A stretch of 64,000 bases of DNA from assembly GCA_019449635.1 (NCBI GenBank), contig JAGRPI010000012.1:1-64000 (forward strand), in the 5' to 3' direction. The first letter of the stretch is position 1, and every line of letters begins with the position of its first letter. The DNA is from Candidatus Ferrigenium bremense. Its GTDB lineage: Bacteria; Pseudomonadota; Gammaproteobacteria; Burkholderiales; Gallionellaceae. A model generated the notes under the pieces. It saw only the letters and a program-made list of their open reading frames with translations. It did no database searches and was not told the DNA's origin. Positions 22,016 to 46,657 of this stretch are shown here, piece after piece. Made by a program: the position numbers and the translations under genes.

Positions 22016-22699
22016 ATGATGCGCGTGCTGGTAGTCGAAGACGACGCCCTGCTGGGCGATGCGATTCAGGCTGGCCTGAAGCAGTCCGGCTACGCCGTGG
22101 ACTGGATGAAAGACGGCGCAGCGGCGGAACAGGCGCTCGCCACCGAACCTTATGCGGCGATGGTGCTGGATCTGGGCTTGCCGCGTCTCTCCGGGCTGGA
22201 GGTGCTGCACCGCCTGCGCAGCCGCAATGTCCGGACAAATACACAGATCCCCGTGCTGATCCTGACCGCGATGGACACGGTGGATGATCGCATCAAGGGG
22301 CTGGATGCCGGCGCGGACGACTATCTGGCCAAACCGTTCGACATGGGCGAACTGGCGGCGCGCCTGCGTGCGCTGATTCGCCGCGCCAGCGGGAAGGCCG
22401 AGCCTTTGCTGGAGGTTGCCGGGGTCGAGCTTGACCCCGCCGCCCATCGCGTGCTGTACCGGAACCAACCGGTCGAGCTTTCGGCCAGGGAATTCGCGGT
22501 GCTGCATGCACTGATGCTCAGCGCGGGAAAAGTGCTGTCGCGCGCCCGGCTCGAAGAACAGCTTTATGCGTGGGGCGACGAGATCGAAAGTAATGCGGTG
22601 GAAGTGCATATCCATCATCTGCGCCGCAAGCTTTTCCCCGAACTGATCGAAACCATACGCGGCGTCGGCTATCTGATGCCGCGCGACAAGGCCTCCTGA
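22016..22699 (+). CDS. OmpR-family response regulator (QseB/PmrA-like)
   Basis: MRVLVVEDDALLGDAIQAGLKQSGYAVDW...LEEQLYAWGDEIESNAVEVHIHHLRRKL. Confidence 0.93.
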   Translation: MMRVLVVEDDALLGDAIQAGLKQSGYAVDWMKDGAAAEQALATEPYAAMVLDLGLPRLSGLEVLHRLRSRNVRTNTQIPVLILTAMDTVDDRIKGLDAGADDYLAKPFDMGELAARLRALIRRASGKAEPLLEVAGVELDPAAHRVLYRNQPVELSAREFAVLHALMLSAGKVLSRARLEEQLYAWGDEIESNAVEVHIHHLRRKLFPELIETIRGVGYLMPRDKAS

Positions 22700-22700
22700 A

Positions 22701-24134
22701 ATGCGGCAACGCACATCGCTCAAGCAACGACTGCTTGCGCTGGCATTGGCGGCGATCACGCTGGTCTGGCTCGGCGCGACCGCCTTCACCTACCACGATG
22801 CGCGCGAGGAGTTCGACGAGGTGCTGGACGCGCACCTGGCGCAGGCTGCTGCGCTGCTGGTCGTCCAGGCATCGCACGACCTCGACGAGCTTGAAACCGA
22901 ACATGCACCGTTGCTGCACAAATATGCCCGCCGCGTCGCATTCCAGGTATGGGACAAAGGACAGCAGCTGCGGCTGCATTCCGCCAACGCCCCGCAGGAA
23001 CCGCTGGCGAGCAGGGAGCGCGGCTTCAGCGACAACATCATCGACGGAAAACGCTGGCGCGTGTTCAGCACCTGGGACGAATCCGGCGAATACCTGATCC
23101 ATGTCGCAGAACGTACCGAGGTGCGCGACGAACTGGCGCGCGGCATCGCGGGCAATCTGCTGCGGCCGCTGTGGTTCTCCCTGCCGCTGCTGGCGCTGCT
23201 GCTGTGGGTCGCGGTGCTGCGCGGCCTGCGCCCGCTCGACGAGCTGACCCGCGAAGTGGAGCAGCGCGAACCGGACAATCTCGCCGCGCTGGATGCATCG
23301 TCCGCGCCGCGCGAAGTGGTGCCGCTGATCGAGCGGCTCAACCGGCTGTTCGTCCGCATCGATGCCTCCATGCAAAAAGAGCGGCGCTTCACCGCGGACG
23401 CCGCGCATGAATTGCGCACCCCGGTGGCCGCGATCAAGGCGCAGGCCCAAGTGGCGCGCGCCTCAACCGGAGAGACGGAACGCATCCATGCGCTCGACAA
23501 CGCGATCCTCGGCTGCGACCGCGCCGCCCATCTGATCGACCAACTGCTGACGCTGGCGCGGGTCGATACGCTGGATCGCGGTGTGATGGAGCCTTGCCGG
23601 CTCAGGGATATCGCCGCCGAAACGATCGCGGCGCTTGCGCCGGCCGCTCTGGAAAAAGGCGTGCAATTCGAATTGCTGGCGGGCGATGAAGCCATCTCGG
23701 TGCGGGCACGACACGGTGAGGCGGAGCCTTCCGGTGCGGGAGTGCCCGCATCGCACCTCCTCCCGCAATCGGCTGGCTACGCCAGTAACGTGTCGGAGGT
23801 GCGCGGCAATCCGGGGCTGTTGCGGGTGCTGCTGCGCAACCTGCTCGACAATTCGATGCGCCATTCCCCGCCCGGCACGTCGGTCCAGGTAAACATCTCC
23901 CATGAGCCGGGAAAGGTCAGCCTGTCGGTGAGCGATAACGGCCCGGGCATTCCGGAACAGGAGCGCGACAAGGTGCTGGAGCGGTTCTATCGCCCGCTGG
24001 GCACGCAGGCCAGCGGCAGCGGCCTGGGCCTGTCCATCGTCAAACGGATTGCCGAGGTGCATGACGCAACCTTGCAGATACTGCCCGCGAGCGAAGGGCA
24101 GGGATTGCGGGTGACGGTGTGCTTCAAGTCTTGA
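22701..24134 (+). CDS. Sensor histidine kinase (QseC/PmrB-like)
   Basis: RFTADAAHELRTPVAAIKAQAQVAR; N-box LLRNLLDNSMRHSPPG; GSGLGLSIVKRI. Confidence 0.94.
   Translation: MRQRTSLKQRLLALALAAITLVWLGATAFTYHDAREEFDEVLDAHLAQAAALLVVQASHDLDELETEHAPLLHKYARRVAFQVWDKGQQLRLHSANAPQEPLASRERGFSDNIIDGKRWRVFSTWDESGEYLIHVAERTEVRDELARGIAGNLLRPLWFSLPLLALLLWVAVLRGLRPLDELTREVEQREPDNLAALDASSAPREVVPLIERLNRLFVRIDASMQKERRFTADAAHELRTPVAAIKAQAQVARASTGETERIHALDNAILGCDRAAHLIDQLLTLARVDTLDRGVMEPCRLRDIAAETIAALAPAALEKGVQFELLAGDEAISVRARHGEAEPSGAGVPASHLLPQSAGYASNVSEVRGNPGLLRVLLRNLLDNSMRHSPPGTSVQVNISHEPGKVSLSVSDNGPGIPEQERDKVLERFYRPLGTQASGSGLGLSIVKRIAEVHDATLQILPASEGQGLRVTVCFKS
23703..23801. repeat. 99-bp in-frame repeat insertion within the histidine kinase gene
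   Basis: Flanked by GTGCG on both sides; first part matches intergenic 547-585 (cacgacacggtgag.cg.agccttc.ggtg.gggag). Confidence 0.65.
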
Positions 24135-43667: not shown

Positions 43668-46657
43668 CCAAGCTTGCCGCGCTGTGCTTGCAATTGCCCC
43701 AGCGTCGCGCTGAAGTCCTCCATACGCTTGCGTTCCTGCTCCACCACGGCGGCGGGAGCGCGATCCACGAAGCTGGCATTCGACAGCTTGCCTTGCGCCT
43801 TGGCGATTTCGCCCTGCAGGCGCGCGATCTCCTTGTCCAGCCGCTCGCGTTCTGCCGCAACGTCGATTTCGATCTTGAGCATGAGGCGGAAATCACCGAC
43901 GATCTGCACCGGGGCATCGGAGTCTGGCAAGGCGCCTTCCGTAGCGGATATCTCGGAAAGCCTTGCCAGCGCGGCGAGATACGGGGCGTAGGCTTCGATC
44001 GCGTTCTTGTCGCCGGCGGCGGCCAGCGGCACCTTCAGCGCCGGAGAAAGGTTCATCTCGCCGCGCAGGCTGCGGCAGGCATTGACCATAGCCTTCAGCG
44101 TTGCCACCCACGCTTCGGATTTTTCGTCGCAGCGCGTCAAGTCGGCGCGCGGGTAGGCCTGCAGCATGACGGAAACCCCTCCCTCCGCCCTCCCCTTGTC
44201 ATAACCAGCGACTTGGCTATCGTCTTTTGATAGCCTAGTCGAATGGCTAGTTGTTTCATCAGGGGAGGGCGCACGGCCGGCGACCGGCGCGACCTTCTGC
44301 CAAAGTTCTTCGGTGATGAACGGGATCAGCGGGTGGGCGAGGCGCAGCACGGTTTCCAGCACGCGCACCAGCGTGCGCCGCGTGGCGCGCTGCCGCGCAA
44401 GGATTGAAGATTCGTCACGCGCAAGTGTGACATCGTTCGTCCCCTCGCCCGCTTGCGGGAGAGGGTTAGGGTGAGGGATGCTTAACTGCACCTTGGCGAG
44501 CTCCACGTACCAGTCGCAGTATTCGTCCCAGACGAATTCGTAGATCGCCTTGGCCAGCAGGTCGAAGCGGTAATCGGCGTAATGCCTCGCTACCTCGTCT
44601 TCGACGCGCTGCAGCCGGCTGACGATCCAGCGGTCGGCTGGCGAGAAATCAAGGTAGCCGCTGTTGCAGGTGTCCTTGCCGTGTTCTTCCAGGCCGCAGT
44701 CCTTGCCTTCGCAATTCATCATGACGAAGCGCGTGGCGTTCCACAGCTTGTTGCAGAAATTGCGATAGCCTTCGCAGCGCTGCATATCGAACTTGATGTC
44801 GCGTCCCGGCGAGGCGAGCGAAGCAAAGGTGAAGCGCAACGCGTCGGTGCCGAAGCCGGGGATGCCCTGTGGGAACTCCTTGCGCGTGCGCTTCTCGATC
44901 TGCTCCGCCTGCTTCGGGTTCATCAATCCGCTGGTGCGCTTCTTCACCAGTTCCTCGATGCCGATGCCGTCGATCAGGTCGATCGGGTCGAGCACGTTAC
45001 CCTTGGACTTGGACATCTTCTGTCCTTCCGCGTCGCGGATCAGGCCGTGCACATACACATCCCTGAACGGGATCTTGCCGGTGATGTGCCTGGTCATCAT
45101 CACCATGCGCGCCACCCAGAAGAAGATGATGTCGAAGCCGGTGACCAGTACCGAGGACGGCAGGTACAGGTCGAGCGCGGGGTTGGATTTCGCCGGATAG
45201 TCCGGCGTCCAGTCCAGTGTGGAGAACGGCCACAATGCGGAGGAGAACCAGGTGTCGAGCACGTCGTTGTCGCGGTCGAGTTGCCCGGCATAACCTGCCT
45301 TGTCCGCCAGGCGGCGCGCTTCGGCCTCGTCATGCGCGACGAACACTTCGCCGTTCACGCCGTACCACGCGGGGATCTGATGCCCCCACCACAGTTGCCG
45401 CGAGATGCACCAGTCCTGGATGTTGTTCAGCCACTGGTTATAGGTGTTGACCCAGTTCTCCGGGTGGAACCTGATCTCGCCGCTTGCGACGCATTCCAGC
45501 GCCTGTTCGGTGATGCTCTTGCCGCCGTTACCGGGCTTGCTCATCGCGACGAACCACTGGTCGGTGAGCATCGGCTCGATGATGACACCGGTGCGGTCGC
45601 CGCGCGGCACTTTCAATTTGTGTTTGTCGATCTTATCCAGCAACCCGGCGGCTTCGAGGTCGGCGACGATCTGCTTGCGCGCATCGAAACGGTCGAGGCC
45701 GCGATATTTTGCCGGTGCATGGTCGTTGATCTTGGCGTCCAGCGTGAGGATGGAGATCATCTCCAGCTTGTGCCGCTGCCCCACCGCGTAGTCGTTGAAG
45801 TCGTGCGCCGGCGTGACCTTCACGACGCCGGTGCCGAATTCCCTGTCCACATATTCGTCGGCGATGATCGGGATGTCGCGCTCGCACAGCGGCAACTTCA
45901 CTTGCTTGCCGATCAGGTGCTTATAACGTTCGTCGTTCGGATGCACCATCACCGCGACGTCGCCGAGCATGGTCTCGGGGCGGGTGGTCGCTACAGTGAG
46001 ATGAGTCAGGCCATGCACAGCATCCGGCTCGGCCAGCGGATAGCGGATGTGCCACATGAAACCGTCTTCCTCTTCCTGCACCACCTCGAGGTCGGAGACG
46101 GCGGTGTGCAGCTTGGGATCCCAGTTCACCAGCCGCTTGCCGCGATAGATCAGGCCTTCATTGAACAGGCGCACGAAGGTCTCGGTGACGGTCTTGTTCA
46201 AGCTGGGATCCATCGTGAAGCGCTCGCGCGACCAGTCGGGCGAGGTGCCTAGACGGCGCATCTGTTTCGTGATGGTGTTGCCGGAGTATTCCTTCCACTC
46301 CCAGACTTTTTCGATGAATTTCTCGCGGCCCAGGTCGTGGCGCGAGATGCCCTGTGCGTCGAGCTGGCGCTCGACGACGATCTGCGTGGCGATGCCCGCG
46401 TGGTCGGTGCCGGGCTGCCACAGCGTGTTATCGCCGCGCATGCGATGGTAGCGCGTCAGCGCGTCCATCAGCGTCTGGTTGAAGCCGTGCCCCATGTGCA
46501 GCGTGCCCGTGACGTTGGGCGGCGGCAGCAGGATGCAGAAGTTGTCGGTCTTGTCCGGATCGAGCCCGGCCTTGAAGTGGCCGGATTGTTCCCACTGGGG
46601 ATACCAGCGCGCTTCGATGTCTTTCGGTTCAAAACTTTTGGCGAGTTCCATATTCAT
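43664..46657 (-). CDS. valS: Valyl-tRNA synthetase
   Basis: [26 protein letters not shown]...[23 protein letters not shown]...[20 protein letters not shown]. Confidence 0.98.
44178..44277. repeat. In-frame composite repeat inside valS (site 1)
   Basis: ccctccccttgtca-[taaccagcgacttggctatcgtcttttgatagcctagtcgaatggctagttgtttcatca]-ggggaggg; encodes [24 protein letters not shown] on the minus strand. Confidence 0.85.
44436..44480. repeat. In-frame repeat inside valS (site 2), CCTCGCCCGCTTGCGGGAGAGGGTTAGGGTGAGGG type
   Basis: cccctcgcccgcttgcgggagagggttagggtgaggg; encodes [12 protein letters not shown] on the minus strand. Confidence 0.8.

Follow-up and report, generated by a model that had tools for sequence, protein, structure and literature searches.

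A probable mobile palindromic element residing in frame in a sensor histidine kinase gene of Candidatus Ferrigenium bremense

Palindromic sequences of ~100–150 bp that lie fused in frame within conserved protein genes, and that also occur between genes, have been described as the Rickettsia palindromic elements (RPEs) and their Wolbachia counterparts (PMC2229807, PMC10969869). YPAL elements leave duplications of variable size, and their targets span or adjoin sequences of dyad symmetry (PMC2229807). Here we analysed a 64,000-nucleotide window of the Candidatus Ferrigenium bremense genome (assembly GCA_019449635.1, contig JAGRPI010000012.1; coordinates are window positions on the forward strand), in which an earlier, sequence-only reading had singled out a 99-bp segment of a sensor histidine kinase gene. 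We conclude, with a probability of roughly 0.85, that a non-autonomous palindromic mobile element entered the kinase gene at GTGCG, duplicating 5 bp, and that this segment is one of its copies.

Filled and empty sites in the kinase gene and elsewhere

The insertion occupies 23700–23803, with GTGCG at 23700–23704 (GGTGCG if the duplication is 6 bp) and again at 23799–23803, a spacing of 99 bp. We compared the gene with its orthologues, the majority of them from Gallionella and from related metagenome genomes. Ten orthologous kinases (L032–L041) have no insert and read like ...GAAGCCAC GGTGCG CGGCAAT..., with one uninterrupted target site, (G)GTGCG in most of the ten, where the window gene has two copies. 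These comparisons bear out the 99-bp in-frame insertion and the possible 5-bp duplication that the sequence-only reading had proposed; the uninterrupted junction it expected, DEAISV-RGN, was off by one residue, most relatives having DEA(T/V)VRGN. The paired hairpins, the hypervariable self-complementary stems and the repeated entry into housekeeping genes, described below, were no part of that reading. The segment is not conserved among orthologous kinases: besides the ten without it, two from the Gallionella lineage (L031, L042) carry an insert at the same codon, there 159 bp long with a nested 60-bp element. The kinase gene tree is compatible with a single origin of the insertion and with separate ones. 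The window gene also has 3 additional bp directly left of the insert and so exceeds the empty orthologues in length by 102 bp.

The host open reading frame (22701–24134, 477 codons in the reading-frame list; Pfam domains 2CSK_N, HisKA and HATPase_c) stays open throughout the insertion and adjoins a response-regulator gene (22016–22699). Because 99 is divisible by three and the frame is free of stops, the 477-residue protein is left whole, with 33 residues added as a loop. In an AlphaFold model of moderate overall quality (mean predicted local distance difference test, pLDDT, 64.7), the insert (residues 335–367) falls between a strand whose last residue is 333 and the strand that carries VRGN (366–369), with the N-box helix (371–388) directly after it; residues 328–363 have pLDDT < 50 and form a disordered loop. 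In all likelihood the insert is near-neutral, a predicted disordered loop on the kinase surface that immediately precedes the N-box helix.

Filled and empty sites were found well beyond the kinase. We searched 24 genomes of the genus with the joined, element-less flanks of 14 copies from this genome and 9 copies from its relatives, and obtained empty counterparts for 24 sites, the kinase and L023 included. Insertion length is exactly 99 bp at 17 of the 24 (counting the kinase as 99 plus its separate 3), 96 bp at two and 102 bp at one, and reaches 156 and 219 bp at sites where other elements are nested. All but two of the lengths are divisible by three, the exceptions being a 161-bp insertion outside any resolved gene (L023) and a 100-bp insertion with an 11-C run (L010), in which either the frame is broken or the sequence is in error. 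Most resolved sites are genic, and many housekeeping genes have been entered in frame: Pfam hosts include HisF-type, RsgA, PhoH, HrpA-like helicase, YhdP, D-Ala-D-Ala carboxypeptidase and AnmK proteins, as well as peptide deformylase, RlmN, DapF, UvrD, an RNB nuclease and a GHMP kinase. In the orientation seen in the kinase, the element is nearly always translated in one frame (...GAGV-ASHLLPQSAGYASNVS...). Lengths that keep the frame are to be expected in genes if selection removes disruptive insertions. Selection for stop-free frames within the element was considered as well and was not convincing (3.73 open frames versus 3.42 ± 0.22 in Markov controls). The 11-C run of L010 lies in the spacer of its copy (~1509–1613 of that locus) and may be a slippage, phase-variable site if it is not a sequencing error.

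Architecture and distribution of the element

The element consists of two conserved, mutually inverted loops of ~32 and ~34 nt, each closed by a stem of 9 bp. The outer arm of hairpin 1 (TGCGGGCAC, 23701–23709), the outer part of which overlaps the target duplication, pairs with 23742–23750, as covariation over 33 sites indicates. Alignment delimits the loops that follow: L1 (GACACGGTG...GGTGCGGGA, 23710–23741) contains the mini-hairpin GGC-GGA-GCC, and L2 (TCCCGCAATCGGCTGG...GTAACGTGTC, 23761–23794) the mini-hairpin CTGGC-TAC-GCCAG, the two loops being roughly the inverse of one another. Between them, alignment and covariation define a 19-nt internal spacer, J' (GTGCCCGCA-T-CGCACCTCC, 23742–23760), which provides the inner arms of both hairpins and is the reverse complement of the outer junction. 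The outer arm of hairpin 2 (GGAGGTGCG, 23795–23803) covaries with 23752–23760. The spacer is shared between two side-by-side hairpins, each half of it pairing with the outer arm on its side, and calculated DNA folding energies for the two hairpins (−16.3 and −14.7 kcal/mol) are similar to that of one long hairpin (−32.6 kcal/mol).

Conservation lies in the loops and variation in the stems, which differ from copy to copy yet stay complementary. Across the 33 sites, 95.5% and 93.3% of the cells in the two stems are paired, and two-sided changes occur in 17 of the 18 stem pairs. The whole structure shows 156 two-sided cells, compared with 43.5 ± 5.4 in shuffles and 21–36 in slid controls; since sampling was confined to a single genus and its order, the shuffles overstate the significance of covariation, a fault of kinship from which the slid controls are free. 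Two loci (L028, L029) bear different loop sequences on equally self-complementary stems, indicating that the loops are exchangeable. With its subterminal inverted repeats (GACACG/CGTGTC), the element has the traits of a miniature inverted-repeat transposable element (MITE), being short, dispersed and non-coding, with inverted repeats and a target duplication that is ambiguous at some sites.

Copy counts in this genome, a draft of 42 contigs, derive from searches. BLAST of the 99-bp segment returned 20 further places at E < 1e-11, and a covariance model trained on 33 copies, one per site, recovered ~35 distinct places at E < 0.01, so that both searches confirm the other genomic copies predicted from the sequence. 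The window copy scores far beyond chance (E 1.2e-23); it belongs to the model's training set, and copies of the family were found independently by BLAST. The internally deleted relative suggested at 547–585 held up weakly (BLAST E 1.7e-4, 86% identity) and looks like a decayed copy: the model matches 535–615 at E 0.025 with a fold z of −1.6, and this probable remnant has a single recognisable loop between the flanks GGCAGCCG and CGGCTGCC. A weak model match on both strands at 2797–2898 (E 0.21, 0.35) is perhaps another decayed copy.

In a first survey of relatives, 26 of 61 genomes had copies, nearly all of them within the genus. A sample of the order gave copies in 21 of 300 genomes and 12 of 134 genera, a lower bound because the filters were strict. 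The copies at L213–L220 (G106, from another family of the order) lie within a longer dispersed repeat, with the flanks ataagttcttggatttnctccggc and accgtgtcctccgtgattca common to many of them. Three tRNAs were the only Rfam families above gathering score in the window, and none matched the element. A phage or plasmid origin was rejected, as phage and plasmid collections contained no DNA match. In literature of incomplete coverage we found no report of such elements in Gallionella, and the family is apparently undescribed.

A second palindromic family, of ~60 bp, is also present. The family (CATAACCAGCGACTTGG...CCTAGTCGAATGGCTAGT...ATCAG) occupies no fewer than 40 places in the genome, and its copy at 44200–44263, as in the 99-bp element, has mutually complementary flanks (CGCCCTCCCC/GGGGAGGGCG). 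Members are nested in loop L2 of the first family at L023, L028, L030, L252 and the kinases L031 and L042; in these two kinases the nested copy is exactly 60 bp long and the frame is kept. Near the window start (300–420), tandem AAAAAGGTTGCAGCTAAACCGGCAGCC repeats encode a lysine/alanine-rich tail.

Spacer, target and the means of movement

Spacers are closer to their own targets than to those of other copies (permutation p = 0.0014, 24 sites), and the opposite-strand control gave p = 0.83. The GTGCG duplication recurs at L002 (with one copy mutated), L004 and L234, in addition to the kinase. Nearly all GTGCG-type spacers keep ATGCG in their second half while the target is GTGCG. At L233 the left side retains the target TTGCG and the right arm has GTGCG as in the spacer; at L006 the left side retains GTGCG and the right arm has GCGCG as in the spacer; at L008 the left arm matches the spacer. 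Copying of the spacer from the target is disfavoured by the ATGCG that these spacers keep and by the arms at L006, L008 and L233, which follow the spacer and not the target seen in relatives. These sequences suggest that the spacer is inherited rather than copied. Given the mismatches with the target and the arms that follow the spacer, our proposal is that the outer ends are templated by the spacer, which would also bias the choice of target.

The sequences show that the element inserted at the GTGCG of the kinase gene and duplicated these 5 bp, and they establish its dispersal, its anatomy, the covariation of its stems and its repeated presence in frame. It can fold as two adjacent hairpins or, at similar energy, as one long hairpin, with the conserved loops presumably bearing recognition signals. 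In the course of events we envisage, it would move as a single-stranded hairpin by means of a protein supplied in trans. The inner spacer may template or guide the outer ends, and insertion would for that reason favour spacer-like sites. It is unlikely, in our view, that the 19-nt spacer goes further and acts as a rewritable DNA guide or template that regenerates the ends and picks targets by complementarity. Were that so, the constant loops of each lineage of copies would enclose a target address particular to it, and copies could settle in coding DNA without breaking frames.

Several points weigh against the main reading. No transposase is linked to the element, and its movement is deduced from sequence comparison; some sites (e.g. 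L020, L245) have no clear duplication or none at all, and at several others it is shorter or unclear; and spacer–target similarity is modest and almost lost (p = 0.047) once GTGCG-type spacers are removed. The stem covariation could also stem from selection on structure or from later template switching. Such switching between inverted repeats (quasipalindrome correction), which homogenises inverted-repeat arms in other systems (PMC8604942, PMC7202029), could have re-matched the arms after insertion, outside the transposition mechanism, and would likewise produce arms that follow the spacer at L006, L008 and L233. We regard this as possible, if somewhat improbable: it leaves unexplained both the resemblance of the spacer to the target in relatives and the match of GTGCG-type spacers to GTGCG targets at several unrelated genes. 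An ordinary REP or REPIN, mobilised by a resident REP-associated tyrosine transposase (RAYT, of the Y1 family), is a poorer candidate still. The inverted pair of short hairpin units with a spacer between them is REPIN-like (PMC3116915), and this genome has four Y1 genes, but these sit among other, unrelated inverted repeats, with no copy of the element in the regions taken around them, so that mobilisation by RAYT or another Y1 transposase is unsupported. Four draft genomes (G016, G020, G022, G026) have copies and no Y1 match, and REPINs are extragenic with conserved stems, whereas insertion here is largely genic and the stems vary. We saw no full-size, transposase-bearing partner in a profile search that covered the Y1 family. 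The inverted repeats that border the four Y1 genes themselves (L168–L170; GGGGTCAGC.., GGGGACAGACC.., GGGGCCAGGC..) are likely their cognate repeats.

Two further accounts concern the kinase insert itself. That it is a functional, selected regulatory segment rather than a neutral passenger we consider very unlikely. The window insert is 98–99% identical to those of L031 and L042 and the remainder of the gene 90%, as a selected segment might be, but the elements at the shared hisI and ABC-transporter sites are likewise more conserved than their flanks in most comparisons. Hence it is seemingly the element that is conserved, through constraint or conversion among copies, and this is no evidence of a role in the kinase; ten orthologous kinases, moreover, manage without the insert, which in ours is modelled as a disordered loop. 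An assembly or binning artefact might be suspected in a draft of 42 contigs, several of which terminate in copies, yet its probability is negligible: the insert recurs at the same codon in independent assemblies (L031, L042), the gene is open from end to end, and many genomes contain copies.

Comparison with known elements

Like RPEs, the mobile element proposed here resides in frame in conserved protein genes, as the empty and filled sites and the Pfam assignments of the hosts show. Unlike RPEs, with which we compared it by description only, it is hosted by Gallionella and other members of an order of Betaproteobacteria, combines conserved loops with hypervariable stems, and shows a 5-bp duplication at several sites and a modal insertion of 99 bp. 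With REPINs it shares a dispersed, protein-less form and two inverted hairpin units around a spacer (PMC3116915); it differs from these extragenic, RAYT-tied elements in that copies are frequent in genes, stems are variable and no RAYT link was found at the four Y1 loci.

The likeness to IS608 of the IS200/IS605 family is confined to one proposed respect, namely end hairpins and a target chosen by pairing between the element and its flank or target (PMC5934647). IS608 inserts 3' of TTAC and has tnpA/tnpB, whereas our element duplicates 5 bp, pairs over 9 bp and has no Y1 gene linked to it. IS200/IS605 elements are marked by the absence of target duplication and by Y1 supplied in trans; here GTGCG is duplicated, and there are copy-rich genomes without a Y1 match. 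The element is, like YPAL/RU-2 and other bacterial MITEs, a small non-coding mobile unit; hypervariable self-complementary arms do not figure in the description with which it was compared.

In-frame palindromes in conserved genes have so far been found mainly in Rickettsia and Wolbachia, and these copies extend them to iron-oxidising betaproteobacteria. Two dozen cross-species pairs of empty and filled sites make the movement of such elements, and the tolerance of proteins for them, directly testable. Conserved loops on variable, self-complementary stems make an unusual design, one that suggests a role for an internal segment in specifying both the ends and the target. On our best reading the element works like RPEs and REPINs, without a claim to membership in either, and belongs in kind with the protein-coding palindromic mobile elements.
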